From NCBI GenBank assembly GCA_964035015.1, contig OZ036007.1, positions 10,987,881 to 11,051,880 on the forward strand: a DNA stretch of 64,000 nucleotides, given 5' to 3'. Below the pieces are notes generated by a model that saw nothing but the letters and a program-made list of their open reading frames with translations, had not been told where the DNA came from and made no database searches. A program made the translations under genes and the position numbers. Source of the stretch: Corallium rubrum. Taxonomy: Eukaryota; Cnidaria; Anthozoa; Scleralcyonacea; Coralliidae. Shown in pieces: positions 9,621 through 47,782 of the stretch. How positions within the stretch are numbered: the first letter of the stretch is position 1; every line of letters begins with the position of its first letter.

Positions 9621-10104
9621 GATGCCGATGGAGTTATAGACAGATATAGCCATAAAGCATTTTCCTACGAGTTGATAGAAGCAGATAAGTACATTGTGGT
9701 AACTGTTTGTCAAGCAGCGAAGCATTGTTATTAAACGAAGACGGAAAAAAAAACAAATAACGCTTAATTTCCAGTTCTATCGATCAAATTCCATCTGCCA
9801 CGTTAAGAGTGTGGGGGCGAAAATAGATTGTTCTAATTGGTTGTTTCGGTGAATAAGTAATTTGAAATACCCACTTGAATTTAAATAACTTAAATTAATG
9901 TATAAACGCCAAAATCTACATATATAAATCAGGACAAGAGATGCTGTTCTTCTATCTGCACTTGCTTCATGGCATTCTAAAGCTAAATGCTGTGTACCAC
10001 GAAGAGAGGTGTGAGGACTACGATTGAACAAAGCGACATATACACAACAGATATTGTGTTAATGTGTTTACAAGTGTAACAGCTTGTGAGGCTGAGAGTT
10101 TGAC

Positions 10105-10800
10105 ATGATCATGCATATGGTTGTGAGTGCGGTGGAATACGACGAATTATGTGGAGTCAGTGTAACTAATGATGTACAGGGTACTTCAGAGACCCGAAGT
10201 AAAAAGCCGAGATCCAAATCAGTGCATTTCGCCGACTCGAAAGGTCTAGCTTTGACGTCGATTTTTCTCTTCGCGAGTCCAAAGGACAACTTGTCACCGC
10301 CGTGTCGACGCAGAACAATTGCATGTTTAAAAGACATCAAGCGAAGTGACTTGGGAAAGCCAGCCAAACTACTGAACTTCAGATCGCCTGTTTCGTACAC
10401 AGAAGTCCTCGAACGCGTTCAAACACTAAACGTGTGCTTAGAAATGATAGTCTGCGACACGTTCGGAATCTGCGGCCGAATACATGTCAAAAATCTCGCT
10501 TTCGTCAAGGAAGTGTCAGTGAGGTACACTTTTGACGCGTGGCAAACGTTTCGAGATCAACCAGCCAACTATATTCGATGTTCCAGCACCAAGGAAAGGG
10601 ATTTGTTTTTCTTTGAAATTAAACCTCCGCAGATTTCGGAGAATACGACGAAAATGAGGTTCGCGATTTGCTACAGAGTTTGCGACATGGAGTTCTGGGA
10701 CAATAATCATGGCGATGATTACCGTTTGGTATACTATAAAACCAAGGATACAATGTCAACGGATCTATCCTTAACTGAACTAGCGGACAGAAATATTTAA
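10105..10800 (+). CDS. Protein phosphatase 1 regulatory subunit 3-like (glycogen-targeting), paralogue A
   Basis: The 231-residue product has the two hallmarks of the PPP1R3 family. KKPRSKSVHFADSKG carries an RVxF-type PP1-docking motif (K-S-V-H-F) at about residue 38. A C-terminal CBM21 carbohydrate-binding domain spans about residues 120-225 and contains VKNLAFVKEVSVRYTFDAW, MRFAICYRV and FWDNNHGDDYRLVY. Family members recruit PP1 catalytic subunit to glycogen so that it dephosphorylates glycogen synthase and phosphorylase; the role here is inferred from the family. The coding region is one uninterrupted exon; the first ATG of the frame is used. A likely 3' splice site (AAGTGTAACAG at about 10070-10081) suggests a separate 5' UTR exon. 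The stop is TAA at 10798-10800, followed closely by a foldback repeat. A close paralogue lies 37 kb downstream on the same strand. Confidence 0.88.
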   Translation: MIMHMVVSAVEYDELCGVSVTNDVQGTSETRSKKPRSKSVHFADSKGLALTSIFLFASPKDNLSPPCRRRTIACLKDIKRSDLGKPAKLLNFRSPVSYTEVLERVQTLNVCLEMIVCDTFGICGRIHVKNLAFVKEVSVRYTFDAWQTFRDQPANYIRCSSTKERDLFFFEIKPPQISENTTKMRFAICYRVCDMEFWDNNHGDDYRLVYYKTKDTMSTDLSLTELADRNI

Positions 10801-19118: not shown

Positions 19119-20589
19119 ATGGAAGATTCTTCAGAAGATGAAAGTTTTTATATCACACAGTCGTCGACAAATAAGCGAAAGCTAAGCGAAGAAAGAGACG
19201 TTGACGTTCATGAACTAGCTGTTCTTTTCGAGAATGAGAATGCACAGGAGGGAAGTGAAGAGACTGATGAAGATAGAAAAGGTACGGAGCACGTGGCGAA
19301 TTTAAAATTGTCGAAAGGTTGGTTCGCTAGTTTAGTATGTTCTTTTGCTTGTTGAGTTTTTAATGTAATGAAATGTGTCGTTTGTAACCAGGAAATAGAT
19401 TTCGAAAACCGATAACGTCGTTGGAGTGCGAAAAGTTCAAACAAAGTTGGACTTCGGAAGCTAGTCGAAAGAAGTGGCGTTGGGTGTTGAAAACATTTGA
19501 AGAGTGGCGGACCGAAAGAAATCATGGTGTGACTAATCTCACCTGTAGTGGAGAACCAGTGATGAACGCAAGCTTAGAAGAAATGTCTGTCGATGAATTG
19601 GATTATTTCCTGGCACGTTTCGTTGCAGAAGTGAGAAAAGTAGACGGGAAAGAGTATCCCGGCAAGACTATATATGAAATGTTAAGTAGCATTCAAACGT
19701 ATTTACGCGTGGAATGTAAGCGTATAATGTGACTTTAATTGATAAGACAAGTTGTGTATTTAGAGAGTTAAATTCGGCGTTAAATTTTGTATTGAAAGAA
19801 AGAGCAGGGCAAGGATTAGGCGTAGAGGTCGCACAAGCTAATTTTATATCGGAAGAGCAAGAAAATTATTTGTGGGAGCACGGTTTCTTAGAAAGCAGCG
19901 GGGCAAGTTTGCTTAGAGATACGTTAGTTTATGTGTTCGGTATACAATTTGCGCTTAGGGCTGGTCAAGAGCATAGAAATTTGAGAAGTAAAAACTCGCA
20001 ACTATCCCTACAAGTTGACGAATTTGGGTCTGAATATTTGCAGTATACGGAAGATGTCAGCAAGACGAATAACGGGGGGTTAGCCCATTTGCGTATCAAA
20101 AGAAAAGTTGTTCGGGCATATAAGAATTTAGAAAATCCCCTTCGTTGTCCAGTTGAGCTTTATAAGAAATATTTATCTCATGTTCCAAAGGACATCAGCG
20201 ATAACGCGTTCTATTTGCGAGCTTTGGCAAAGCCAAATGGTGATATTTGGTATTACAAAAAAGCTGTGGGTAGGGAAACGTTAGGAAATGTGGTGAAAAA
20301 TATTATGAAGAATGCCGGGTTTGAAGGGCATTTTACAAATCACTCTCTTCGGCGTAGTTGCGCTACAAGATTGTACAATGCGGGAATATCAGAACAAGTT
20401 ATTCAGGAGACGACTGGTCACCGGTCATCTGATGGGGCGTATAAATGTACTTCGACGTCAATTAAAAGAAAAGCGAGTGAGATATTACAAGGTTCCGATT
20501 TACGTAAGGTTGAAGTGAATACGGAAGGTGAAAAGAAAATATGTTTAAAGAAAAATACTGAAAATGACGTGTCTGACTTATGTTGTTGA
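19119..20589 (+). CDS. Crypton-like tyrosine recombinase (YR, DUF3504-type), possibly interrupted
   Basis: Exon 1 is 19119-19280 (acidic N-terminus MEDSSEDESFYITQSSTNKR). It splices at GTACGG to 19393, followed by a core-binding-type region (TSLECEKFKQSWTSEASRKK...). The catalytic domain shows the R-H-R-H-Y series: LRAGQEHRNL (Arg codon 19957), HSLRRSCATRLYNAGISEQV (His 20341, Arg 20350), TGHRS (His 20419) and the Tyr of GAYK (20440). Enzymes of this fold cut and rejoin DNA through a covalent 3'-phosphotyrosine. Between the core-binding and catalytic parts the frame changes near 19715-19765: the first frame meets TGA at 19730-19732 while the second is open on both sides. Either a very short intron or a frameshift lies there; I could not find a splice pair with satisfying phase. 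The stop is TGA at 20587-20589. The closest relatives by motif are Crypton recombinases and domesticated ZMYM/QRICH1-type proteins. Confidence 0.85.

Positions 20590-21080: not shown

Positions 21081-21085
<5 letters not shown>
21022..21085 (-). repeat. Right 64 bp TIR of the recombinase element
   Basis: Exact reverse complement of 18834-18897. Confidence 0.95.
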
Positions 21086-22700
<1,615 letters not shown>

Positions 22701-22813
22701 AATAAATTCATATAGTGTTTACTTGGTCGAGAGGGCTCAACACGACAGTTAATGTTGTGGAGTAATGATATTTGGTTTAAAAAGGATAAAAATACAGTTT
22801 TAAAAAGTTCGGT

Positions 22814-22929: not shown

Positions 22930-22950
22930 GTAATTTTTCTGAACGTTTTC

Positions 22951-23330
22951 TATGGTTGGCCATTCGTTTCAAAATTGGGTCTTCGTATACGGGGCTTTTT
23001 TGCACGTATATTTCTATATTTTCATCTGTTTGTACGCGTATATACGCCTATTTTCGACGCATGTATACACGCGTCTTTTTGTACGCGTATATATGCCTAT
23101 TTTCGACGCATGTATACACGCGTCTTTTTGTACGCGTATATACACGCGTCTTTTTGAACGCGTATATGCGTCGTTTTTTGTACCCGTATATACACGCGTC
23201 TTTTTGAACGCGTATATACACGCGTCTTTTTGTACGCGTATATAGGCATCTTTTTATACGCGTATATACACGCGTCTTTTTGAACGCGTATATACACGCG
23301 TCTTTTTGAACGAGGAATATACGCGTGCGA
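22951..23330 (+). repeat. Left TIR plus subterminal array of the 10.1 kb element
   Basis: The terminal about 110 bp match the right end. Then follow about ten imperfect units of ACGCGTATATACACGCGTCT plus TTTTGA/TTTTGT. Each unit contains a CGCGTATATACGCG-like palindrome. The array ends about 130 bp upstream of the HECT gene start, so it may serve as transposase-binding sites and promoter; this is inference. Confidence 0.85.
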
Positions 23331-23459
23331 ATTTGTTTTCGCGCGCAAAGTCATGGCGGCAAATATCGTTCTGTGTCACGGGGGGAGGCGGAACAGAAAG
23401 TTGACTTCGGCCAGTGTTCAAACCTCAGTTCTTTATTCTGTGTTCAAAGTGAAAAGACG

Positions 23460-26400
23460 ATGTGTGAAAATTCTTCTGCTGGGCCTTCTAGGATTCTCAT
23501 CCGTCCGGTAGGACAAAAGCAAGGTGGAACGGTGAGTTTGATCTTACCAATTTATGTTGTTTTAACGTACAGTTTCACGCCAATAAACTTGGATATTTAC
23601 TGATACTGGTATAGAACTGTGTCCCATGTTTGATGAATCCTTTTACCCATTTTTCATAGTATATGGCTATTCCTACCACGCTTGACGTGATGGCAAAAGA
23701 GGGAGCTTGGCATTCACAATAGTCCTGATATACAAGTACTTAATGGGGATCTGGGGTTACTAAAAGCAAAGATCCTTCTCTTCTACAGTAAATGAAGATC
23801 TTTTAAATATAAGTTAGCTATTTAGAAATAATGTATTTTGTACTGTAGAGACAGAGTCTACCAAATAATGGACGTCAACCAGTGGATGATGGGGGCACTG
23901 GGCACACATGCTCCATTCATAGTTTATTTTATATATTATATTGTATATATTTTATATATTATATTATTTTATGTATTATATATTATTTTGTATCATTCTT
24001 CTAGGGATGGTGATATTATCTATTTTGGAACTCCCCCAAAAGAAAAAGAACAGTCTGGTATAAAGACAGTGACCAGTCAATACGATTATGATCTGTGCTT
24101 GTGGAGGCAGTGATTCTCTTTTACTTTCTGTGTAAATGGGAAGCCCTGCAAGAGAACAGAAATTTGACAATGACTCCCCTCCATATTATATAATGTGCTC
24201 TGTGACATGACCCCCCTTCATTTACTTGCTTTGTCATGTTTACTGAAATTATCCTATGACTGAGTGAGTGGGGAGGGGGGAGACAAATTAATATAAACAT
24301 ATTAGGTAGTGGGTGGAGCCTATTCACCTATTGCTAGCCTCCTGCTACATCTTTTTTTTTTTCATCTATGTAACCCCTTAATTTTCCCCTTCTTCCCCAT
24401 AAGTAACTGGTCATGTGAACTATAAAAAGTTTTTTTGTTGTATCCCATTTTCTTTTTTTTGTATATTATTTAAATACTGTACACAGTACATGTACTTTTC
24501 TTTTTTTTTGTTAAATACTAGTAAATGAAACTCTACGCAGTATGTTTGGAGGACAAAATCAGCAACAACAGCAAGCTCGGAACAGCAACTCATTCAATAC
24601 AACCATTGAAAATGCACTGGGCAATATCAGTGGTATCATGAGTAGCTATAACCAACATGGATCATCCAGTATTCCTCGAAGACAAAAAGCGAGATCAAGG
24701 AACAGATCATCACCATACACTCAAGTCAGGCCATGCAAACGCAAAGTAGTCCAACTGCTTTGTAAAAAGAGAGGATCAAGCTCCAGAGAAATACCAGAAC
24801 CTTGGCCATACAAGAATTTTGAAGAGATCTGGGAAGGAAATATAGAGTATACAGATCAAACATCTGAGGGTGACATTTTGACATATATATGTACTGCATT
24901 TAACTCTCAACCACAAGCAAATAAGGCTAATATCAGTGAGCTAAAACCAGGAAAGCTTCGTTTTGTTCACAGAAAAAATGGAAAAGTGACAACAAGGTCT
25001 TCTGCAACATATGATGGAGCAGGTATTCAGTGTAATTACAGACAAGGAATCGTTTATATGCTTGTACAAGACGATCTACATTCAACAGCAACAGTTTTGT
25101 CATCTGGATTGGAAACCATTCCATATGTAAGATATTTTTGGAGATAGATACTATTACTATTAGTACGTGTATAAAGCCAGTGGATATTTATAACCATGGT
25201 GCAATTTGCACTTTTATATCAGATTAATTTCAAAATCAAATTACATGCATGCCCTTTGGGTTATTCTGTGGACTTGTTCAGTGTTAAGTTTGTCCATTCC
25301 ACACCCATTTTCAGTTTTACACTTGGCCGAAATGCAATTATAATTGTTTGTTCAGGTTGGTTAGTCATTGGTTCCTCTAAAATGTTTTTTTTGTGCCATT
25401 GTCAAGATTCATGAGGTCAATCCAGCACTGAGTAACAGAAAGCATGCATCTTATTTATCTACAGTTCTGCTGGACAAACATCTTCAGTTGCCTATTTGTT
25501 GAAATACATGTACATTCCTTTCATATTGAAATACACCCATATTGTGTATATGATTTGGTTGAATATTTCAAAATACTGGTACATGTAGTATGTCTTGTTT
25601 TGTTTCACATTTATCGCCATTCAATTTACAATTAATTATACCTAGACATGCAAGAAAACAGATACATTTGTGTGACCAAAAACTTTTGTCCAATACTGTA
25701 CTACTGTATCAGAATTCAGAAACTATAAGTAATAACTCTCTAACTCACTATGTTCTTACCTTGTCAGCAATCAAATGTGCCTCCAGTGGAGACCCCACCA
25801 TGCAGGGTGAACAATGCATTAGCTGGAACATCCACTCAAACGTCTTTAGTCATTGTCGGCAAGAGCCCAACATCATGCATGGTGAACAATCCATTAACTG
25901 GAACATCCACTCAAACTTCTTTAGTCACCATTGACAAAACCGCAATCTCATGTAGGATGAACAATCCATTACCTGGAACATCTCATCAAACACCTTGTAC
26001 CACCATTGAGGATACTACCAGTGAAGATGTTAAAAGTAAGTAGGCCTCCACACATACCAACTACTGTATACTGTTGTACCTTTGATAATAACCCCAAAAA
26101 TACGCTGTGCCCTTGGAAATATAACTTTTTTGAGTATGTAAACCCCTCTCATGTGGGTATGTATATGTTTCCCCTGGGAGGGGGGGAGATGGTCACAACA
26201 ATAATTGAACCATGCATAAGCCCCACCTATTAATATTAATGAAGCAAAATTCTTCTGATAATATAACCCTCAAATACAAAAAGAAAATATGCTGTGATAT
26301 GGGCTTATTAATTTTATGATTAAAAAATATATATTTATAACAGATAACAATTTATTTATAATTTTGGGATGTAATGTTGGTGGAGGTCCGCACTCAGGTG

Positions 26401-29400
26401 ATTTTTGTTGTGATTTTTCTCATCCTGATGCATGAGATTGAATGGATGACTAACAAAAGTACTGTATTGAACAATATAATTTGGAACAAAAAGTTCAATT
26501 ATACATTTGTAAGTCATTCCATTTGGTAATTGATTGCATGTGTCAGAAGGAGTTAAATCACAGCAAATATTGCATGTGTAAATGCATGGATCCCAGCCAA
26601 TCAGAGTTTGTAGAGGATACCTTATTTTATAAAGCAATATCACCACACATTGTGTTGCAGCTATTATACTATTTATATATTATATATTTAATTTCCTCAA
26701 ATCACCCAGCCCTTCATGTCTGTAAATCCCATGTGAGTTGACACAGGCCAAACAAAACCCATAACATTTTGTTTCCTTTATGTTCGAAGGATATGTGATT
26801 GAAGCTGGTTTCTCATCAGAAGATGCTGACAAAGGAATATTAGCCTGTGTATGTAATATGCAATACTTTTCAACAATCATAATTTTACATACTTTTACAA
26901 TTTAATGCTCATTGAATTGATTGATTGAACTTTTGAAGCTTTTAATTTAGTTTTGTTAACATGTAGAAGCATATTCACACCTTAACTTTGACTATATAAA
27001 TTATTATAATTTGTGGTTATAATTTATATTATAAGTAAGCTCTTAGGGCAAAAATAAAGTTTAAATAAAAAACCCCAAAACAAACTAAGGCAAGGAAGGG
27101 ATGGGTCCACAGCCCTAACTGCATGCACTTTGATCATGATTTGTACATAATTTCCAAATGACTCACTAGTGTTCTGAGATTCAAACACACCCATTTTTCT
27201 CTTTTATTCAACTGCCCTTCTTGTAACTAGTTGTACTTGGGATATTTCCTCAGGGCTCTTCTTTTAGCCTTACTTCCCCCAAATGGCCCTTACCAGCCAG
27301 ACCACCCCATACAAGCTTTAACATGAGTAGTGTACATGTACATGTACATGCAAATTTACATGAGCATCTAGTTGGTTTTATCTTCAAACAGTTCAAAGAA
27401 TGTTATACTAAGTGATCAGTAGCTTAGTGTGTTCTAACATTTTTTTTAATTATTTATCAACATTTAACATAGGGCTCCCTTGCAACTGCTTCAGATGTCA
27501 TTGAGTGGATTTGTGATAGTCAAGAATTCCCATGCATGATGGATGATAATGACATTACAATGACTGCTGAGGAGCTGCTGCAAAGAGAGATATCAAAGCT
27601 AGTAAACAAATATGATGATCACTTTTTGTGTCTAAATAGAGAAGAAATATGGAAGTCTGGCTTAACATTTTATAAGCAGTGTATGGGAGACAAATCAAAG
27701 TTGCAAAGAAACCTTACAATTAGCTTCGATGGGGAGGATGGGCTTGATGCTGGGGCCATAAAAGCTGAATTCTTTAGTTGCCTGTTACAAGAAATGGATA
27801 AAAGATTCTTCGAGGGAAAGGCTGAAAGACGTATTCCAAGAAAGTCCTGGGGAAGTAACCATCATGTTATTGCAGGCATGATCATAGGGCATTCTTTATT
27901 ACAGGCTGGTCCAGCATATCCTATGCTTGCACCTGCTGTATATCAGTACTTGTGTACAGCCTCAGAAGATGCAGTTGTTCAATCTATGTCTATGTTACCA
28001 TGTAGTGATGATATTCCTAAAGATGCTAGTACACTTGCAATTCATGATGTTATTGCTAAGGTTTGTACAATGATAATAGATTTCTTGTTTAAATTGAAAT
28101 TCAAGATTTAAAATACATAAGTCATATATGTTCTAGGGATTTATGGTGAAGGAAAATTCGAGTGTAGAATATATACATTACTGTATAAGACCAAACCGGG
28201 ACCAGTTGCGAAAAATGCAACTACACAGGCCTTCCGGCAGGAATTGAACCCACGACCTTGCGATCCTAGTGCAATGCTCTGACCACTGAGCCACGGAGGC
28301 CGTTGCCGAGAGCTTGATCGCGAGTTCTGTATATACAGAAGGCCTGTGTAGTTGCATTTTTCGCAACTGGTCCCGGTTTGGTCTTATAATGTATATATTC
28401 TACACTCGAATTTTCCTTCACCATAAATCCCTAGAACATGCTATGTAATCGAGTGAAATGCCCAATATTACTTCTAATAAACCCCATTCTCTCCTGGCAT
28501 TACCACCTTAATATATACAGAACTCGCGATCAAGCTCTCGGCAACGGCCTCCGTGGCTCAGTGGTCAGAGCATTGCACTAGAATCGCAAGGTCGTGGGTT
28601 CAATTCCTGCCGGAAGGCCTGTGTAGTTGCATTTTTCGCAACTGGTCCCGGTTTGGTCTTATAATGTATATAATCTACACTCGAATTTTCCTTCACCATA
28701 AATCCCTAGAACATGCTATGTAATCGAGTGAAATGCCCAATATTACTCATAAGTCATATAGTTGTACAGTACATTAATTTAATGTATAAAATTAATCTTT
28801 GTATTTACATTACATGATAGATGGATTTAGCTTCAACACAAGAAGAAATTGATTCATTACTTGATGTACCAGAATACTTGGAAGTCATTAATGGTTCAGG
28901 GTGGCCTTGTACACAAGCTATTTTGATCACAAACAAGAGTGAAATAGTGCAAGGCTTAATCATTGAGGAGGTTATAAGAAAGAGAGTGAAGTCAATGGAT
29001 GAGATAAGGAAAGGTCTTGGCATTGTTGGAATTCTGCCAATAATGGAAGCTCATCCCAGTCAATTCAAAAAGTTCCTGGTACACGAGGAACATCCTCTTA
29101 CAGCAGCAGAATTCAAGAGTCTATTTTCCAAGGACTGTATCAAGCCAAGTGAATACCCTGATTGCCAAATCTATGACTGGTTCATGAAATACATTGAGAA
29201 TGGGGATACACCTTGTGAAGGTTAGTTATTAGCACAGAAGAACTGTTTCTAGGGGGAATTATCCTCTCCCCCAATACCACTTACAGTATTCTTGCCCCAG
29301 TACCCTTAGAACATAATATTTGGGGTGAACAATTGCTCAAACATCCACCAGTAACTGTTGCTCACATTGAAGTTGGAAAACATTCTTTAAAAATGGGGAC

Positions 29401-30014
29401 ATAACTGACTTACCTCCTTCAAGCGATGTTAGTATAGTTATTGATGATCTTATAATGTGATGTATTTCCAACAGGTCTTTGAAACTCAATCTTCTTACAG
29501 TATGTGGGTTGTTTTTTTTAAAAATACCAGAATTTTATAAAATTTGACTGAATTTTCCTTAAAATTTATTTTTTTGCCAGTGTGAAATAAGATAGATTAT
29601 AAACATCCCCCCTTCAACTTCCCTGAGCTGCAAAGCTTTACATACATCAATACACTCTGGATGCAAAGATTGGCAGATTGTCACTAAACTCGATCTTTGA
29701 AAAAGGTAGTATTATAGACTAAAATGCTTGAAAATATCCCTGTTTTATATTATTCTTAATTTCCAGAATTTCCAGAAGGGAGACTTGTGCCTTTGCTGCA
29801 ATTTTCAACAGGATACAGAAGTATACCCCCTCTTGGCCTCAGTTGCAGGCTATCCATACAATATTTAAGTGATGATGACACAAATGAATTACCCATGGCA
29901 CAGGCATGTTTTGGTCTTATCAAGCTTCCAGTAATCCATACCAGCAAGAATGTATTTTTCAAAAAGCTTGACACAGCTATAGCTTTTGGATCCATGGGGT
30001 TTGGGTTGACGTGA
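23460..30014 (+). CDS. HECT-type E3 ubiquitin ligase-like protein carried by the transposon
   Basis: Recognised exons: 23460-23531 (MCENSSAGPSRILIRPVG), 24005-24057, 24522-25126, 25768-26035, 26790-26848, 27473-28060, 28821-29220 and 29767-30014. From 24005 onward all phases are compatible; at least one exon between 23531 and 24005 is unresolved (the open stretch at about 23851-23920 is a candidate). The N-terminal half is Gln/Ser-rich and then a conserved-looking domain with WPYKNFEEIWEG. Exon 25768-26035 encodes three repeats of about 24 residues (C-[RM]-[VM]-NNPL-x-GTSTQTSLV). The C-terminal half is HECT: N-lobe LTISFDGEDGLDAGAIKAEF, then C-lobe LLQFSTGYRSIPPLG, the active-site Cys in MAQACFGLIKLP (codon 29907-29909) and the end MGFGLT. 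HECT enzymes accept ubiquitin from E2 as a thioester and pass it to lysines. The terminal TGA could be skipped because GTGAGT overlaps it, but GFGLT is a normal HECT C-terminus. Resembles metazoan G2E3-like proteins. Confidence 0.82.
25768..26035 (+). repeat. Intragenic triplicated coding repeat
   Basis: Three successive 72-75 bp units in one exon encode variants of NNPLTGTSTQTSLVTI preceded by Cys. Nucleotide similarity between units remains high (GGAACATCCACTCAAAC in units 1 and 2), which indicates recent tandem expansion. This is a flexible Thr/Ser-rich linker between the N-terminal domain and HECT. Confidence 0.85.
28228..28301 (-). pseudogene. tRNA-like head of SINE (reverse copy)
   Basis: The 74 nt segment keeps A-box TGGCTCAGTGGT and B-box GGTTCAATTCC with tRNA spacing. 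The anticodon loop would be CTAGGAT and the acceptor stem has an unpaired A, so it is the Pol III promoter head of a SINE, not a functional tRNA. Confidence 0.75.
28546..28619 (+). pseudogene. tRNA-like head of SINE (forward copy)
   Basis: Same structure as the reverse copy with one difference in the anticodon loop (CTAGAAT). A and B boxes are intact. It is followed by the SINE body, not by a Pol III T-run. Confidence 0.75.
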
Positions 30015-30734
30015 GTTACTGAAACCACCCCTTGAACTTAGTTATTGTTCTGCAATAACAAGTTTGACATGTTAATTTAAAAGCATCTTTTTACGTTGTG
30101 TTAAAGAATGGTTACCATTTTTGTCATGAAGTTTAAAGATACTGTATTATAGTTTTTACTATTCTACCTATTGTATAATTAAAGAAAGACAGCACAATTT
30201 AAAACTTTACAGATATACAGGTATGTAACCAACTGTATGTGGGTTAATAGCCAATTTATCTTATTTTTAAACCAAAGCACTTTACATGACTGTATTCTTT
30301 TACAAATGAAGTACCATAATGCTTTGCACCATCAGGGGTGGGGGTATCTCCTCAATGTTATTTTGTTTTGACAAAATAATTATATTGAGCAGATTGAAAA
30401 AGTCCTATAAGTGTGTAAATCTGAATGCTGTTTTGCTCCTGGATGTTTGAGTACTAGAAAGACAAGTCTCCACCAGCAAATTCTGTATGTAATTATAAAA
30501 AGTTGGGATAGAATTAGGTGTAAAATTTTAGTGCCTTCAGAAAACACATTAATTTGTCTTTGTTTGTGACTTTGTGTTTAAACCAAATTCACATAGTAGC
30601 ACATCAACATTCAACAATAATTTTTACCCATTTATAACTATTTTTTTCCAAATAACACTGTTTTGTTTCTGAGTTACATTCCAGGATGCAAAGCATGGTA
30701 TTACAGAAAACTGCAGGCAAATACTGTACAATTA

Positions 30735-31085
30735 AAGTCGTTCTCTGAAAATATTTTTGGTAATGTTTCTGCATAATCCTAAAGACATGGTAGTAATTGT
30801 ACGGAGTTTCAATGTTTCATTTCAAAATTCTCAAAAACAAAGTTGTATTTTAAGTGTAAAGTTTGTATTTTGGAGAAAAACTTCTGTCATAGACTCAATA
30901 AAACGAAAGATCATTGTTGTTGTCAACAAAAGGGTCATTGTTATTGAGCCTACAGTACTGTAAAATATCACCTTTTCTTCACCAAATTTTGAAATGAAAC
31001 TTTGCACGATTACCAACTACCATAACATCTTTAGGATTAAGCAAAAACATTGCCAACAATATTTTCATCTGAGAGCCACTTTAAC
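30735..31085. repeat. Imperfect foldback between the two convergent transposon genes
   Basis: The arms at about 30735-30870 and 30950-31085 pair imperfectly (AAAGTCGTTCTCTGAAAATA vs its diverged complement; TAATCCTAAAGACATGGTAG vs CTACCATAACATCTTTAGGA). It occupies the intergenic space where both transcripts must end; whether it is a nested MITE or a terminator structure is open. Confidence 0.65.
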
Positions 31086-31172
31086 TTGTTACACTGTATC
31101 ATTAACATCACTTGTGCTTTGAAATTTAACAATAAAAATTTATATTTTCTTATGAACTCACTGTGTAATGAT

Positions 31173-32695
31173 CTATCTCATATTTGCTTCCATAAGTGTG
31201 GCAATTATTGTTCTTGTTTCCAAGTAAATGTCAACACCATAGTTATTACTCCAAGCAAGAGGTTGGATGTGTGAAATAGTTCTAAGTTCCATATCATTCA
31301 ATGGGAGTGTTGTATCTGGTACTTCAACAGTGCCAAGGTCAAATTCATTTGGTGGAGGTCCTTGTGGATCCATACCGTACAGATCACCAGGTGGTGTGAT
31401 CCCATCAAAAACATCTCTGACTGCAGTATTCTCCATGTTTTCATGAGAAATAACTCCATTAACCCAAATTTGCCAAGGATTCCAGTTTGCCTCAGTTCTC
31501 AGTGGGTGATTATTCCAAGCTCCTGTGAAAAGGTTTAACTGATGATTTATCCTTGGACAAAAAACATAGTGTAGGCAAAATAGATCAACTGTATTTGTTG
31601 GATCCAATATTCCATTTTCTTCCATACTATAGAAGAGTGTATAGAAAAAGTGGCAAACACCAACAAACACATCTCTCCATAATCGCTCAATGCGCTGATT
31701 ATGAACAGATACTCCTGCAATGTGACTTCCCCTGTTAAGACCTCTGTGTCTTAGCATAGCTTCTGCCACATCAACATTTTCACCCCCTTGTCAGACCGTA
31801 CCCTTGATGGCCATCCATGTCTATCCACAGCTGCCATAAAATTTGTTAGTACTGTGGAAGCTAGATTGTTCGTTGAACAGACTAAGAAAACAATAAGTCT
31901 AGAAAACCCATCTATTCCTCCATGGACTACAAATCTCCAGCGTATCAAGGCATGCAGTCCATCAATATGCCAAAGTGAGTTTGGCCCTGGCACACTGTAT
32001 ACACGTCTAGCAACACTGTTGAGCCACCTCAAGGAACTTCCCACTGGATCAATTCTCACCAAACTCGCGCGTATCCGATGGCGCTGAATATAGACATTTC
32101 GACTACGTAAGTGTCCCAGCATCATGCTTATACCAGAATTGGGAAAAGTTTGCCTTAGTCTACGAATACATTCATCTAAATTATTATCTGTTATGTCAGT
32201 ATAATAATGGCTAAATGATTCGACATCTCTGACTCTTCGCCAAAGTGTTGTTCTTGAAACCAAGAGCATCGATGAAATTTGATTCCAGGTAAATCTCATC
32301 CTATTCCTGAAGAACTCTAACTGTGGTATAGAAATGTCATATGATGGACGACCAACTCTTCGAAGAGTTGGGTCATTATTCACTTCGGGTAGTATTCTTG
32401 CAGGATTAACTCTGGTGCATGAGCTTGCTCCGATAGTTAAAACTTCCCACCTGTATAATAGGGATCTAAGTTGAGTATCCAGGGAATCAAGATGTTGTAG
32501 TACTTGAGGTTCACGACCAGTACCAATTAACGTATTCATCAGACGGTCAACTGATTCGACAGCAACTTGTAAACGAATAACTAAGTTCTCTGCCATATTA
32601 CGGTCTGTCGTCGGATAATGTCTTCTACAATCATTTAATATTAGTCTTATTGCTTCCAGTAAATCAACTGTCAATACATAATTATTATCCGCCAT
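31173..32695 (-). pseudogene. Integrase-type DDE transposase, one frameshift
   Basis: The start MADNNYVLTVDLLEAIRLIL (ATG at 32693-32695) lies about 50 bp inside the right subterminal array. The N-terminal half contains a helix-turn-helix-like segment (FTWNQISSMLLVSRTTLWRR). The integrase core follows with D (SLWHIDGLHALIRWR), D (RVRSDKG) and E (HNQRIERLWRDV), the DDE triad of retroviral-integrase-fold transposases. A G5 run at 31783-31787, just after the second D, shifts the frame: the first frame (32695-31751) runs out into unrelated residues while the second (31769-31173) continues the core to ...LMEANMR. A single missing base in the G run would explain this. The copy is therefore either recently inactivated, a sequencing error, or subject to frameshifting. 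About 500 residues in total would be expected. The gene is convergent with the HECT gene. Confidence 0.87.
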
Positions 32696-32744
32696 CTTTT
32701 GCCAAGAATTTTATATTTCTCTTATTTATAGTCGTACCAGTCTT

Positions 32745-33065
32745 CTCGCTCGGTTACAAAAAGACGCGTGTATATACGCGTTCAAAAAGACGCGTGTATA
32801 TACGCGTTCAAAAAGACGCGTGTATATATGCGTTCAAAAAGACGCGTGTATATACGTGTTCAAAAAGTCGCGTGTATATACGCGTTCAAAAAGACGCGTG
32901 TATATACGCGTATAAAAACGCCAATATACGCGTACAAAAAGACGCGTGTATACATGCGTCGAAAATAGGCGTATATACGCGTACAAACAGATGAAAATAT
33001 AGAAATATACGTGCAAAAAAGCCCCGTATACGAAGACCCAATTTTGAAACGAATGGCCAACCATA
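32745..33065 (-). repeat. Right TIR plus subterminal array of the 10.1 kb element
   Basis: Eight or so units of AAAAAGACGCGTGTATATAC followed by GCGTTC, then the terminal TIR ending GGCCAACCATA at 33065. The array begins about 50 bp from the transposase start codon. Confidence 0.87.
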
Positions 33066-33071
33066 GTTTTC

Positions 33072-39640: not shown

Positions 39641-42580
39641 GATAGATAGATAGATAATCTTTATTTAACCACGCTAACACTGTCAGCAGATGCTGGTTTC
39701 CACAGTGGGCGTGTTTGAGATACAGGTATTACGCTAAATTACATACAAAATAGAATATCTACAAAGATTTACATAAATGTCTGGATTACAAATTTTTAGA
39801 ACATAGTTAAGTATAATCATGGATAATATAATTAGATAATTTATAAATATAATCTATTATATTACCCATGGTTTAATATAGAGAAAAATGTTACAGTTTA
39901 GTTACTTACAGTAGAGCAGAAGCAGCAATGTTTCGTTTGAATTGGTTGAGAGACTTGCTATTTTTAGTTTCTACTGACAGGGAGTTCCATATCGAGCCCC
40001 CATCATATAGAAAACTTTTCTTCATGTTATTTGTTCTCGGTTTTGGCAAACAAACATTAAGGTCACTGTTTCGAAGATTGTGATTTAGGACTTCTTCTCT
40101 GAAAGTGAATTGATTTTGTAGGCATTCTGGACCCATGTTGTTTAATATTTTGTACATCATTTTGGCTTTTGCTTTCATTCTTTGTGATTTTAGTGGTTCC
40201 CAATTTAATTCACTTAATATAGTATCTTGCTGTACTTCATTGGGCATATTTGTTATAATGCGAGCAGCTCTGTTATGAAGCTTTTGTAGACGTGTGGATT
40301 GAGTTTCTCCTAGCACATTCCAAACTTCACAGCAATAATCAAAGTAAGGTTGTATTATAGCATTATATATTGATAGAAGGGTTTTCAGATCAACAAATTC
40401 TTTTAGGCGCCGAAGAGCACCTAGACCTGATGTTATTTTTTTACAGACAATGTCAGTGTTATTTTTCCAGTTCAAATTTTCGTCGACAACTATGCCCAAT
40501 GTTTTACTTTCAGTTACTTGTTTGACTGCTTTACCATCAATAGAAATATTTGGCTGACAATTTGATACTGTTTTCAACATTTGATTAGAACCAATTAATA
40601 AGAATTCAGTTTTAGTTACATTTAGGTTTAGTTTGTTCGCTATTAGCCAATTTCGAAGGTTTTCTAGATCCGAGTTTACGACATTTTCAATTTCATTTAT
40701 TGTTTTCCCAGCTGCTGTTATATTTGTATCATCAGCAAATAATCGAGCTTCAGTTTTGTTCAGGCATTTAGGGAGGTCATTTATGTAAATCAAAAAGAAC
40801 AAAGGTCCTAAGATAGATCCTTGAGGTACACCACATATTATATCTCGTTCAGATGAAACATATCCATTTACTTGACATTTTTGGGTGCGATCTGATAAAT
40901 ATGACGTTAATAATGTTAGAGCATCGCCTTTGATACCATAGAGTTCCATTTTTTGTAGGAGAATTTTATGGTCCACAGTATCAAATGCTTTCTTTAAATC
41001 AATTAAAACAACGAGGTTTAACATTTTTCTATCCATATTTAGATACCAACTATTTGTGCAGTCAAGTAGTGCAGTAGCAGTAGAATGATGCTTTCGAAAG
41101 CCAAATTGTTTCTCTGATAAAAGATTATTTTCAGAAAGATATTCATAGAGTTGGTTGTATAAAATACGTTCCATAATTTTGCTTAGGATAGGTAAAACAG
41201 ATATAGGTCTGTAATTTTCAGGTAAATTTTTCTTGCCGCTCTTGAAGATGGGGGTTACTTTTGCCATTTTCCATTCATGTGGAAAACTGCATAAAGTGAT
41301 AGATTGGTTAAATATATATGTCAGTGAACTGGATATGATTGGTGCAGCAATTTTAATAATTTTACTAGAAATTTTATCAATGCCTGTGGCTTTTGAGCTC
41401 TGAAGCTGAGACAAGAGATGAAAGACATGGTTAAGAGGAACTGGGTCAAACGCAGTAAACTCAGATTTAGTTTTTTCGATGTATTGTTGAAAACAGTTGC
41501 TGTTGTTCTGGTTAATTTTGTCAGCTAATTTTGATCCAATTTCCGAGAAGTAATCATTAAAGCTTTCTGCGAAATCACTTAAGTTTGTTACCTTTTTGTC
41601 ATCGATAATCAGTTCATTTATATTTGTTTTTTTGTTTTGTTTGCCAAGTAAACTATTTATCATTTTCCAAGCAGATTTAGGATTTTGACTTTCATTTTTA
41701 ATTTTGGTTGAGAAATATTCTTGTTTTGCTTGTCGTATTTGAAGAGTTATGTCATTCCTTATTTTCTTATAATTTTCCCAATCTGTTCCTAGTTTTGTGA
41801 TCATGGCTTTTCTTTTTAGTTTATCTCTCTGAAGAATCATGGCTTTTATACTATTAGTTATCCATGGAGAATTTTTTGACTTTATCTTTTTCTGTTGTAG
41901 AGGGGCATGTTTATCAAGAATTTCTAAAAATAATTCTTTCCAAATGTCCCACATGCTTTTGGGATTATCTGCAAAAAAGTATATATCTTCCCATGTCTGA
42001 TGTGCTAGATCATTTAGAAATTTTTGTTCATCAAAATGTTTCATATTTCTCATTTCAATAATATTTTCTCTATTCTTGTCTTGAGCAATTTTATTTATTT
42101 TTCTAATTGCGAAAATCAGGCTGTGATCACTAATTCCAGTGTGAATGACACCAGTTTTACATATTTTCTCTGGGTTATTAGTGATAAAAGGATCAATCAG
42201 GGTTGCAGAATGTATAGTTACTCGTGTAGCCTCAATAATTAGTTGTGATAATTGATAAATTTCAAATAAAGATTTTAGTTTATTCGTATGATGATCACCG
42301 TTATCTTTTAGCAAATCACAATTTAGATCACCAAGAACATAAATTTCTTTATCTTCATTATCTAGACTTTTAATACTTTCTTCGAACTGAGTGAAAAACT
42401 CTGTTTGAGCATTTGGTGGTCTATAGATTGCCATGATTATGAATGGCTTACTGTGTGGTTTTGTAATTTCAATGCATATAGCTTCTATGTCAGATGGTAC
42501 AATGTTTTCTCTGATCTGATAATTTATGGTGTTACGTAAGTAAATACACACCCCACCACCAATTTCAAATTTACGTTTGA
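39640..42580 (-). mobile_element. 5'-truncated non-LTR retrotransposon (LINE)
   Basis: On the - strand a single long coding frame is followed by about 250 bp of 3' UTR, AATAAAGATTATC and a short tetranucleotide tail (TATC)n. The 5' end is cut inside the endonuclease domain at about 42580, where the sequence turns into a local GTTTGAAATTATC repeat. The organisation (APE endonuclease plus RT, microsatellite-like 3' tail) fits the CR1/L2/Rex1 side of the non-LTR tree; the exact clade is undecided. Confidence 0.85.
39906..42551 (-). CDS. LINE ORF2-like polyprotein: partial APE endonuclease plus reverse transcriptase
   Basis: 881 codons without a stop. Residues 1-170 are the C-terminal half of an apurinic-endonuclease-like domain (AIYRPPN, VLGDLNCDLL, TGISDHSLIFAI). 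The reverse transcriptase lies at about residues 400-680: KMAKVTPIFKSG, NYRPISVLPILSKIMER, FGFRKHHSTATALL, LVVLIDLKKAFDTVDH (first catalytic Asp), GVPQGSILGPLFFLIYINDL and LFADDTNI (catalytic Asp pair, about 40723-40742). The C-terminus carries YNAIIQPYFDYCCEVW and LQKLHNRAARII, typical of CR1-like ORF2 tails. Translation given from the first Met codon is arbitrary because the true N-terminus is missing; the frame stays open to the truncation point. Openness over 2.6 kb points to a recent insertion. It copies RNA into the genome by target-primed reverse transcription in intact relatives; this copy cannot be autonomous. Confidence 0.93.
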   Translation of the reverse strand: MCIYLRNTINYQIRENIVPSDIEAICIEITKPHSKPFIIMAIYRPPNAQTEFFTQFEESIKSLDNEDKEIYVLGDLNCDLLKDNGDHHTNKLKSLFEIYQLSQLIIEATRVTIHSATLIDPFITNNPEKICKTGVIHTGISDHSLIFAIRKINKIAQDKNRENIIEMRNMKHFDEQKFLNDLAHQTWEDIYFFADNPKSMWDIWKELFLEILDKHAPLQQKKIKSKNSPWITNSIKAMILQRDKLKRKAMITKLGTDWENYKKIRNDITLQIRQAKQEYFSTKIKNESQNPKSAWKMINSLLGKQNKKTNINELIIDDKKVTNLSDFAESFNDYFSEIGSKLADKINQNNSNCFQQYIEKTKSEFTAFDPVPLNHVFHLLSQLQSSKATGIDKISSKIIKIAAPIISSSLTYIFNQSITLCSFPHEWKMAKVTPIFKSGKKNLPENYRPISVLPILSKIMERILYNQLYEYLSENNLLSEKQFGFRKHHSTATALLDCTNSWYLNMDRKMLNLVVLIDLKKAFDTVDHKILLQKMELYGIKGDALTLLTSYLSDRTQKCQVNGYVSSERDIICGVPQGSILGPLFFLIYINDLPKCLNKTEARLFADDTNITAAGKTINEIENVVNSDLENLRNWLIANKLNLNVTKTEFLLIGSNQMLKTVSNCQPNISIDGKAVKQVTESKTLGIVVDENLNWKNNTDIVCKKITSGLGALRRLKEFVDLKTLLSIYNAIIQPYFDYCCEVWNVLGETQSTRLQKLHNRAARIITNMPNEVQQDTILSELNWEPLKSQRMKAKAKMMYKILNNMGPECLQNQFTFREEVLNHNLRNSDLNVCLPKPRTNNMKKSFLYDGGSIWNSLSVETKNSKSLNQFKRNIAASALL

Positions 42581-43426
42581 AATTATCGTTTCGAAATTAT
42601 CATTACGTTTGAAATTATATGGAGCACGTACGGTAGGTCGGTAGCCAATCAGAAACCCCGTTATATTACATCTATGTTATAAAGCTCTTTTTAACATGTG
42701 ATCAATCTCGTTCCCAGAGCCCACGTTCCCCTTACCCAGCGGGCGGGAAACGAGTAGCGCCAAAGCACTAGGGCAGCCTGTACTTCAAGTAACCTTGAAC
42801 ATTCTGTAGGATCGCAGATTCCGAAAACGGTATTTGACTATATGCCATGTACTTTTTAAATCTTGCTGTATCAGTGTATGGTAAGGTGCTTCAAATAGCA
42901 ACTGAATGAAAGTGGCCTTGATGCCCTGCCTGGCCTTGATGCCCTGAAAAACATCGTAACATTCAAGGCCAAACTCCTTCGCAGACGTCTTGTGGGCTTT
43001 TCTTCCCACAAGACGTCTGCGAAGGAGGCTACATTAATACTTCTTCAAAACCTCTTTTTAAATAAGAAAAATGTCTCTAAAAATTGTTAAAAAGACTTTA
43101 GGCCAATGGTTGCCTAACAATATTAGCTTCTTAGTTATTTTATGGGAAACCAATACCATATCAATTTATATATACTTACGTTAAAATATTCTTATAATTT
43201 TCTTTTCTATTTTTATGGTATAAATAAATCTTCCTCTACTGCAACCTTCTATGTAATGACTAGACTTTCTTTTCAAACATTTTTGACCTTTCGACATTTT
43301 TGACCTTTCGGTTCTTCGCCTCTTTCCTCCCCGCTTTTCCGCTCTCCCGCCTTTCCGTTCGCCCGCCTTTCCACCCGCCCGCAAAAACTAGCGCTAAGAG
43401 GCGGACTTGGAGCAAGTCTATATTAA
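42581..43426. other. Non-coding region with local repeats
   Basis: Tandem GTTTGAAATTATCATTACG-type phrases at the LINE junction (42575-42620). A short tandem duplication CCTGGCCTTGATGCCCTG lies at about 42915-42945, and an inverted pair (CACAAGACGTCTGCGAAGGA and its complement) at about 42975-43025. No convincing gene. Confidence 0.5.
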
Positions 43427-45482: not shown

Positions 45483-47107
45483 GTCGGGATTAGTAGTCCT
45501 AACCTCAGGTTAGACCTTTTAGAGATTCGGTCATGAAGATTTGGATTTTCCTCTTTCTTTTCTTGCCTTACAATTGTAACTATAGATAAAAAGTCTGTGT
45601 AGACTTCTAGTAGACCTCTAGCCCTACAATGCTAAACAAATAACATAAATATTATACATTTTTTGATGGGCAAAAATAGAAATAAAAAAAAGGATCATCG
45701 CCTACATCGCTACCTAGCGCCCCCTGGAGTGCATGATCACGTTGTGTGAAATGACTTCCGGAGACACTCACGTATACTGGGAGGGCTCGTTTCTAATTGG
45801 TCAATGCCGAAAACATGAGAAGGTTTCAAACCAATTACATGTCGACACTCCAAGGGTCTAATCACAACAGGAAGATACTTCAAGTGTCTGTCCATGCATG
45901 GTCCATGTGTGCGTCAAGTTACATAACTACGCGCTATTTCGTTTCCCAGCGTTTCAGTGCCGTGTGCCCTTCATGAGCAAGCAGCTGAAGCAACGAGGAA
46001 GCCAGGAAATTAAAAGCACTCTCTTCGATAAAGGTAGGTCTAATATTAATCCATACGAATTTAGAAATATCATCGAATATAGGAACATCATTGAAATATT
46101 ATCAAAACATTGAAATAGAAAGATTATTAGAACATTATTGAAATACTATTGAAATACAATCGAAATATTATTATGGTTTCATATTCGTCTTGATTTTCTT
46201 AATTTGAATTTTGATTTCTTAAGATGATAATTTTTGTACGTTTATAGTATAGTATACTGTACTCTCATCTTGAGGTTTGTGAAGTCTTGTTAGTTCTGGC
46301 TGTATAAACAATCTTGCCTTAATTATTATAATGCCTTACGCAACCTTTAATACTTTCAGCTTAGAGTTAGTGAAGTTTTCTCAGTCCTTGTTGTACAAGC
46401 TGTCGTTAGGCGTACATGTATTAGCCATAGCAAGGATTTACAGTAGAATACAGGTCAACAATCTTGTTAAGTGATAAAGAACAATGCAGAAAAGCTTATT
46501 TATTACTTAACATGCATCTAAATCATAAATCGGCGACGATCTGCGACTGTCGGCGATGCACAAGAACTAGGCTAAGAGTTAGTGAAGGTTACTCCGTCCT
46601 TGTTGTACAAGCTCTCGTAAGGTGTTAAATTCTGACCGTAACTAGAAACAAACCCACAGCCTTCCGAATGTTATATAACCATTAGCCAGGCGCTCTATAT
46701 AACTATTAGTATTAAGCCACAATAATTCACATGGTATATATAGATTGAGGTTATTTACGCGTCTATATACTTGCTGGGCTATAAGCCGCTTTGTGTCAGT
46801 AAATTTCCAGTTTAATATTGGTTTGGAATTTGTAGCTTGGAGTTAGTAAAGGTTTCTCAGTTCTCGCTCTACTCTTCTTCTTCTTCAAGCTGTCGTAAAT
46901 TGTTAGTACTCAGGAAACGCTGAGCTGTAGTCGGTATTTGAACCCGCACCTGGAACTCAGGTGACCGATTGTTTATTTGTTTTCTGGTTTATTTACTGGA
47001 ATTGTGGGCGGATATTGGCTATGTATATAAATAGTAATGACTCCGTTATAAATTCTTCTAAGTTAACCATTTTCTTTCTATCTACAGGGCAGAGAAAGTG
47101 AGAAACC
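45483..47107 (+). other. Upstream region of PP1R3 paralogue B
   Basis: No coding exon was proven. 45960-46034 (…GATAAAG followed by GTAGGT) could be a 5' UTR exon spliced to the acceptor TATCTACAG at about 47080-47088 just before the PP1R3 start; joining the frame gives a stop before the ATG, so it would be untranslated. The phrase GTTAGTGAAGGTTNCTC is repeated three times (about 46368, 46568, 46840), showing an old local duplication. Confidence 0.35.
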
Positions 47108-47782
47108 ATGTTGTTAATCACGCCACGGTTAACTAACTCCTGTGGGTGTTACCGTACACAAGAGGAGAGTATCCGAATGGGTTCCGACAAGGACAAGTGC
47201 ATGTCGTTTAATACTCAAGAGCCTTTTACCACACGAGTTTCAAAACAACGAAAGATCAAGTCGGTTCATTTTGCTGACACAAAAGGTCTTGCTTTGACAT
47301 CGACATTTTTTTTCGCAAAGGAACATTTCTCGCCTCAAGACAACCGTGGACGGATCATCGCCAATTTTTACCAAAATAACAGAAAAATCAACGGAGAGTG
47401 CGCCAAGCTTCTAAACTTTAAATCACCTGTCTGCCCCAAAGACTTGACGGATAACCTTGATAATAATAATGTTTGTTTGGAGAAGACGTATTGCAATCGA
47501 AATGGGATTTACGGTCGGATCCAGGTCAAGAATATTGCCTTTGAAAAAGATGTTTTTGTAAGATATACTTTTGACTTGTGGCAAACTTGGCAAGACCAGA
47601 AAGCGAATCACATCCCAGGCTCCAGTACTTTGGAAACAGATACATTTTTCTTTCATATCAAATCGCCACGGAGTTCGGAAGACAAGAAAATGGAGTTCGC
47701 GATTTGCTACAAGGTCAACGAAAGGCAATTCTGGGAAAATAATTTCGGAGACAATTACCGATTAATCTACTCGCATTCTTAG
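47108..47782 (+). CDS. Protein phosphatase 1 regulatory subunit 3-like (glycogen-targeting), paralogue B
   Basis: The 224-residue product is parallel to paralogue A. It has the PP1-docking block RKIKSVHFADTKGLALTSTF (K-S-V-H-F at about residue 52), the LLNFKSPVC segment, and a CBM21 domain over about residues 112-222 (VKNIAFEKDVFVRYTFDLW, DTFFFHIKSP, MEFAICYKV, FWENNFGDNYRLIY). The aromatic residues of the CBM21 carbohydrate site region (W in FDLW and QTW) are conserved. As in paralogue A, the coding sequence is one exon preceded by a plausible 3' splice site. An internal ATG (MGSDKDKC, 47180) is an alternative start. The stop is TAG at 47780-47782. The family brings PP1 to glycogen particles; function here is inferred. 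Confidence 0.88.
   Translation: MLLITPRLTNSCGCYRTQEESIRMGSDKDKCMSFNTQEPFTTRVSKQRKIKSVHFADTKGLALTSTFFFAKEHFSPQDNRGRIIANFYQNNRKINGECAKLLNFKSPVCPKDLTDNLDNNNVCLEKTYCNRNGIYGRIQVKNIAFEKDVFVRYTFDLWQTWQDQKANHIPGSSTLETDTFFFHIKSPRSSEDKKMEFAICYKVNERQFWENNFGDNYRLIYSHS

Follow-up and report, generated by a model that had tools for sequence, protein, structure and literature searches.

In the passages of the literature on which we draw, the IS3EU and GingerRoot transposons are described as mostly having TA..TA ends and 6-bp target site duplications (TSDs). Their transposase is of the integrase-like DDE type without an HHCC zinc finger, and 100-300 residues separate its N-terminus from the first catalytic Asp (PMC10045372). 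TET-bearing IS3EU elements of rust fungi have TAYGG..CCRTA ends and contain a TET/JBP gene between the transposase gene and an oppositely oriented alpha-kinase gene; the TET/JBP protein was proposed to aid escape from methylation-based silencing (PMC12730594). In Ginger1, which has 4-bp TSDs and the HHCC motif (PMC10045372), there are transposases with OTU or Ulp1 domains, and it was suggested that the ubiquitin pathway acts in transposition (PMC2836005). HECT is not mentioned in the main text of PMC10045372 or PMC12730594, and the open papers searched, Repbase being outside that search, yielded no description of a DNA transposon with a HECT gene. Here we analyzed a stretch of 64,000 nucleotides from the Corallium rubrum genome (assembly GCA_964035015.1, contig OZ036007.1, positions 10,987,881 to 11,051,880 of the forward strand; hereafter the window). 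It contains an IS3EU-like element in which a gene for a predicted HECT E3 ubiquitin ligase faces the gene for the integrase-type transposase. Our analysis indicates that this is very probably a two-gene transposon that combines an integrase-type transposase with a HECT ligase under selection, the HECT gene being integral to this type of element at the copies and loci examined in this genome.

A first-pass annotation of the window, made from its letters, had noted matching terminal inverted repeats (TIRs) between GTTTTC duplications, subterminal tandem arrays, and convergent HECT and DDE integrase genes. Each of these was located (see the table). The coordinates of the TIRs and TSDs proved exact, with perfect TIRs of 142 bp beginning at 22951 and ending at 33065, and arrays of a 26-bp unit lie inside either end. 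The HECT gene on the plus strand and the integrase gene on the minus strand face each other across 1158 bp, and their products passed Pfam PF00632 and PF24764, respectively. The element ends are TATGG..CCATA. A TIR 16-mer, allowed up to 3 mismatches, matches only two sites within the window, which are the two element ends, both exact.

Searching the genome (474 Mb in 312 contigs) with the left end of the element returned at least 14 matches, which make up six pairs of ends and two extra pieces; the copy number is therefore a lower bound. The six copies, including that of the window, lie at six sites and have their own perfect 6-bp TSDs (GTTTTC, GAATAG, GAAATC, CCATTC, GTTCCG and ATAATT). The termini are TA..TA in all six, with TATGG at both ends in five; one end of copy C25b reads TATAG. 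In the window copy, C1 and C56 the TIRs are perfect over 142 bp, and the other three copies have early mismatches. C1 is 99.6% identical to the window copy across 9.5 kb. Because six genomic copies have like ends and each has a different perfect TSD, the element is not a product of chance. It is a recently active cut-and-paste transposon whose mobility generates 6-bp TSDs. The same six sites and six TSDs exclude a fixed host locus for the HECT gene of the window family.

The termini, the TSD length and the transposase anatomy fit the IS3EU/GingerRoot group, and we therefore assign the element to it as IS3EU/GingerRoot-like. The first-pass annotation had named Ginger and IS3EU together; the IS3EU part of this stands, and membership in Ginger1 was rejected since the TSD is 6 bp instead of 4 bp and the HHCC zinc finger is missing. 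As in the IS3EU and GingerRoot elements, at the level of detail available from the source, the ends are TA..TA, the TSD is 6 bp, and the DDE transposase has its first Asp at position 245 (in copy C56) and no HHCC. What differs is the convergent HECT gene, the subterminal 26-bp arrays and, in some integrases of a second lineage described below, a CxxC..CxxC zinc ribbon. The fungal TET/JBP elements, as far as the cited passages go, share TAYGG-type ends (in those of rust fungi) and an extra enzyme gene that is opposite the transposase and kept across families; the enzymes there are a kinase and a dioxygenase, whereas here a HECT ubiquitin ligase is predicted and the host is an animal. Ginger1 is likewise an integrase-type DNA transposon bearing an enzyme of the ubiquitin/SUMO system. 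In the passages cited, however, the transposase itself bears that enzyme as a C-terminal domain, which removes ubiquitin or SUMO, and in our element it is encoded by a separate gene and predicted to attach ubiquitin.

The HECT gene spans 23460-30014 on the plus strand. Its seven exons are in phase, without a stop, and all introns have GT..AG borders, giving a protein of 743 residues. An independent protein of 701 residues (P0001, from a contig of 3803 bp) is 61% identical to it, starts in exon 2 and is colinear with it over the exon junctions after exon 1. Thus the preserved exon phases claimed at first pass hold up, as does the intact catalytic Cys, which is also kept in all 17 HECT rows aligned from this and other loci (three of them near duplicates). 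The Pfam HECT domain scores 53.5 bits against a curated cut-off of 23.9, and the exon at 29760-30014 alone is over the PF00632 threshold (E 3.2e-13). Among six relatives scanned, five have a Pfam HECT domain over the cut-off and one, L039, gave no hit. The structure model of P0001 is weak (mean predicted local distance difference test score, pLDDT, of 54; predicted template modelling score of 0.33). Residues 265-306 form a better-predicted three-helix bundle that appears UBA-like, and the N-terminal domain is modelled with strands and a helix in a possibly ubiquitin-like order; the naming of both folds is ours. Pfam UBA at these helices stays under its cut-off (E 0.061), and CUE is above its cut-off of 21.1 in two relatives (33.8 bits in L040 and 21.8 bits in L036). 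In a Foldseek search with the weak HECT model (pLDDT 54), the best match in the PDB was the NEDD4 HECT domain (E 3.8e-8). There were 84 PDB matches at E<=0.001, and the 50 displayed were all HECT ligases, with template modelling scores by query length of 0.13-0.15 and sequence identities of 15-20%. By its sequence, the window protein is predicted to be an E3 ubiquitin ligase of the HECT type that also contains UBA/CUE-like helices. It resembles NEDD4, E6AP, SMURF2 and AREL1 in having a Pfam HECT domain over the cut-off and the catalytic Cys, with NEDD4 as the best Foldseek match, and differs from them in being transposon-encoded and in its UBA/CUE-like helices and variable N-termini.

Two pieces of the integrase gene match Pfam PF24764 (rva_4; E 3.1e-35 and 9e-46). 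In the window copy the reading frame is shifted by one base missing in a G run at about 31782-31790, just past the second catalytic Asp. This loss, which the first-pass annotation did not report, is private to the window copy: the base is present in all five other copies. The intact integrase of C56 has 507 residues, with D245, D302 and E337 as the catalytic triad; inspection by eye found no CxxC within its N-terminal 240 residues. The best structural match of the integrase model was the Rous sarcoma virus intasome (E 2.7e-3), and no structure matched under E 0.001.

Both genes were found in all six copies. None of the copies with these TIRs lacks the HECT gene, although C25a, the most decayed copy, has no match to exon 1 and both of its genes are broken. 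Five of six copies have a complete HECT frame, free of stops and indels, and two (C56 and C30) have a complete integrase frame. In addition to the loss in the window copy and the decay of C25a, the integrase is broken by an insertion of ~0.86 kb in C1 and by a 2-base loss in C25b. Among the five better copies, 8 of 2232 HECT coding positions are variable versus 46 of 4097 intron positions (Fisher p 0.0014), and the HECT changes comprise 3 replacements (1749 sites) versus 5 silent ones (480 sites; p 0.014); in the integrase coding sequence 8 of 1515 positions vary. When C25a is included, the variable positions number 22/2155 in HECT, 78/2966 in introns, 16/1514 in the integrase and 25/1127 in the intergenic stretch. 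These comparisons between copies, small as the numbers are, indicate that the HECT gene of the window family is under constraint, in line with the earlier proposal that it is maintained.

The pairing of the two genes extends beyond the window family. With P0001 as query, at least 67 matches were obtained in the genome (64 of 739 first-look candidates scored). Sorted manually, they fall into the six copies plus a further 35 loci, and 15 of these 35 were examined as stretches of ~10 kb. All 15 contain an integrase, and it faces the HECT gene in 14; in L041 an additional piece of integrase lies on the opposite strand. Three pairs of these loci are near duplicates in HECT (L027/L028, L029/L030 and L034/L035). 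As a control, the HECT and integrase queries matched none of six pieces of the window outside the element. At the scale of the genome, the matches to PF00632 number at least 131 (with 129 candidates scored out of 515); merged with the 35 loci they make at least 122 HECT loci. For the integrase there are at least 91 matches (with 90 candidates scored out of 1297), which make up at least 88 loci. Of the 122 listed HECT loci, 22 have a listed integrase within 5 kb and all 22 are convergent; about 0.26 would be expected, assuming even placement across the genome. Among these 22 are the six copies and three loci of the examined 15. The examined stretches and the pairing of listed matches together yield 28 further loci with both genes, 27 of them convergent. 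Looking from the integrase side, a facing HECT was found in both of two integrase loci (of the 88) whose 3.5 kb downstream were inspected; both are among the 22. The seven top-scoring PF00632 rows, with no listed integrase within 20 kb, are presumably host genes, some of these rows probably being exons of one gene. The HECT domains of the different loci share about 14-57% identity. In the integrase rows, in which C56 represents the window family, the second Asp and the Glu are kept in all 17 and the first Asp in all 15 that have letters there (again with three near duplicates). The first-pass annotation had called the HECT gene cargo. Carriage in the transposon stands, and the term is too weak, because HECT-integrase pairs recur in very diverged lineages.

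Could the two genes belong to separately mobile repeat families that merely lie next to each other? In favor of this, each family has many members here (739 and 1297 candidates at first look). The 22 pairs against an expectation of about 0.26, their uniform orientation, and the TIRs and TSDs, which at the six copies and five more loci (one with an imperfect TSD) bound a stretch containing both genes, speak against it. For elements with TSDs such adjacency is refuted, and overall we give it next to no probability.

These five loci come from the 15 examined stretches. A strict finder identified four elements bounded by TIRs and TSDs that enclose both genes (L032, 5780 bp; L036, 7429 bp; L037, 5219 bp; L039, 5900 bp); all four have TAYGG ends and 6-bp TSDs without a mismatch. 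A relaxed finder added one more element, L040 (7346 bp), whose TSD matches at 5 of 6 positions. The ends of all five are TACGG or TATGG. The other ten loci have no clear ends in the stretches examined; palindromic or AT-repeat 'TSD' hits were discarded. When each of the 15 loci was shuffled once by mononucleotide, no TIR/TSD hit appeared, and 150 first-order Markov controls gave eight, none with TAYGG ends; both controls cover the strict finder, not the relaxed one behind L040.

In the integrase tree, L032, L035, L036, L039 and L040 form a second lineage (supports 1.00 and 100). In four of these, L032, L036, L039 and L040, a CxxC..CxxC zinc ribbon opens reading frames at both ends of the element. 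The terminal repeat of L040 measures 634/614 bp, with 607 of 635 positions identical, and contains both start codons; the first 40 residues of its transposase and its ligase are therefore the same. The ribbons of L036 and L032 are of the same kind, diverged, and lie outside the aligned TIR. Those of L039 are in short frames, which we interpret as first exons. In Pfam the ribbons score under the cut-off, some narrowly. No zinc ribbon was seen in L035, its duplicate L034, the first-lineage loci, or two loci from outside this genome, L001 and L002.

L001 and L002 are integrase loci in contigs of prokaryote genomes, both in sponge-symbiont bins, and are probably sponge host DNA contaminating these bins. 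L002 (from an Iophon bin) has an integrase facing a HECT frame that scores 28.5 bits, above the Pfam cut-off. In L001 retroelement-like frames lie downstream of the integrase. A profile search collected 14 proteins, of which 11 resemble L002 in type and 3 the window protein, and the viral contigs scanned contained no relative. A likeness between the N-terminal domains of L002 and the window protein was considered and dropped, the sequence match not being significant (E 4.8).

Several observations weigh against a HECT ligase that is under selection and integral to the element. The HECT and integrase distances of 14 non-duplicate loci are only modestly correlated (Mantel r 0.31; 60 of 9999 permutations as high). 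In the HECT tree L032 clusters with L037 and L038 (supports 0.998 and 100), two loci with first-lineage integrases. Because L032 is a single TIR/TSD-bounded element, its modules have been exchanged. The comparison of both protein trees, which had been put forward at first pass, thus gives a divided answer: the distances do correlate, and at least one module exchange breaks strict co-inheritance. The window element has no zinc ribbon, and the ribbon pattern is present in 4 of 19 loci searched. Among the matches listed, 100 of 122 HECT loci and 66 of 88 integrase loci are unpaired, a count in which a partner is neither excluded nor established except at those that are among the 15 examined. In L030 the integrase is on the same strand as the HECT gene, and in L001 no HECT was found in the 4.2 kb available. 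Within the window family, the last HECT acceptor of C30 is GG instead of AG. Among the five better copies the intergenic stretch varies as little as the HECT coding sequence (4/1155), and the constraint signal therefore rests on the introns and on the eight changes. The structure model of the predicted ligase is poor (mean pLDDT 54).

Taken with these points, the HECT gene is a constant companion of the integrase in the loci examined, yet not strictly co-inherited with it. A host HECT gene trapped between TIRs as a neutral passenger would be in keeping with the gene capture that transposons are generally known for and with the exchange seen in L032. Such a passenger is hard to reconcile with the presence of both genes in six of six copies, the sign of constraint on HECT, the 28 further loci and the one contig from a sponge sample, and we consider it very improbable. 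At the copies and loci studied here, the HECT gene has the look of a core companion that works for the element rather than of a stray passenger.

What might the ligase do? The first-pass annotation had raised two possible roles, degradation of host restriction factors and control of the transposase. The element probably needs, or strongly benefits from, two products, an integrase-type transposase and a HECT E3 ligase. The transposase would cut and insert the element, leaving the 6-bp TSDs. It is quite possible, if still short of probable, that the ligase shares the transposase's site of action at the transposon ends, or has the transposase itself as its target. It could ubiquitinate the transposase, or chromatin or repair proteins bound at the ends, and ubiquitination might then lead to removal of the finished complex and repair of the insertion. 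An analogy for such removal is the bacteriophage Mu transposase, which is removed by ClpX.

Alternatively, the ligase could work in trans against host defense, degrading a silencing or restriction factor such as a small-RNA, chromatin or DNA-damage protein. The IS3EU elements of fungi offer a precedent, with their TET/JBP and alpha-kinase genes and the anti-silencing role proposed for TET/JBP in the passages cited (PMC12730594). The variable N-termini of the HECT proteins (perhaps ubiquitin-like, zinc ribbon or CUE) would suit changing substrates. Against this, in some elements the ribbon common to ligase and transposase points to the transposon end instead. We regard counter-defense as possible and somewhat improbable, with a smaller share of probability left to other roles. 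Action at the ends is favored over it because, in the sister lineage, transposase and ligase of one element can both begin with a zinc ribbon of one kind. A broader version of action at the ends would make HECT-bearing IS3EU elements a widespread two-component system of animals. The ligase would then be a true transposition factor, addressed to the ends or the transposase by a TIR-encoded ribbon, and would mark the finished transpososome with ubiquitin for removal. This extension is speculative and, at present, rather unlikely.

The window contains other repeats and frames outside the element. The frame at 19388-20589 (plus strand) encodes a QRICH1 domain (E 2.7e-11) followed by a DUF3504/phage-integrase-type tyrosine recombinase (E 4.5e-30), and we take it to resemble a Crypton-type transposon or a Crypton-derived gene. 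Two CBM21 frames of ~230 residues (10096-10800 and 47102-47782, both plus strand), 37 kb apart, flank the transposon; they are perhaps paralogues of a host gene, presumably one for a PP1 regulatory subunit. An open frame of 896 residues at 39906-42596 (minus strand) contains a reverse transcriptase (E 8.9e-35) and is presumably a non-LTR retrotransposon. A 2.3-kb array of GAGTGCA-like units at 5700-8033 has an extreme GC skew and long open minus-strand frames, and a 1.6-kb (TATGTA)n array at 21082-22704 lies shortly upstream of the transposon.

Table. Features of the HECT-bearing transposon in the window, and of the chimeric element L032.
Feature	Position	Strand	Remarks
Complete IS3EU-like DNA transposon	22951..33065		10,115 bp; TIR and TSD; six genomic copies
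Left TSD	22945..22950		GTTTTC
Right TSD	33066..33071		GTTTTC
Left TIR	22951..23092	+	142 bp, perfect; begins TATGGTTGGCCATTCG
Right TIR	32924..33065	-	142 bp, perfect
Left subterminal tandem array	23025..23326		26-bp unit
Right subterminal tandem array	32757..32991		26-bp unit
HECT exon 1	23460..23523	+	ATG at 23460; least certain exon, outside P0001 coverage; in frame in five of six copies
HECT exon 2	24522..25126	+	N-terminal domain, perhaps ubiquitin-like (from predicted secondary structure only)
HECT exon 3	25768..26035	+	Poorly conserved linker containing a 75-bp repeat
HECT exon 4	26790..26848	+	UBA/CUE-like helices begin
HECT exon 5	27473..28060	+	UBA-like helices end; HECT N-lobe
Pair of inverted tRNA-like repeats	28150..28750		Nested in HECT intron 5
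HECT exon 6	28821..29220	+	Middle portion of HECT
HECT exon 7	29767..30014	+	C-lobe with catalytic Cys (..LPMAQACFGLIKLP..); stop
DDE integrase-type transposase gene (Pfam rva_4)	31173..32695	-	ATG at 32695; single exon; 3' limit approximate
Chimeric element L032	2508-8287 of L032		Second-lineage integrase with L037/L038-type HECT

Some known DNA transposons carry enzymes that remove ubiquitin or SUMO, and the enzyme predicted here is of the ubiquitin-attaching kind. The HECT transposon offers a direct test of the published idea that transposition involves the ubiquitin pathway. In fish and cnidarians, many HECT genes carry the annotation 'G2/M phase-specific E3 ligase-like'. Some annotated HECT ligase genes of animals may belong to transposons, and counts of E3 families would then be distorted.

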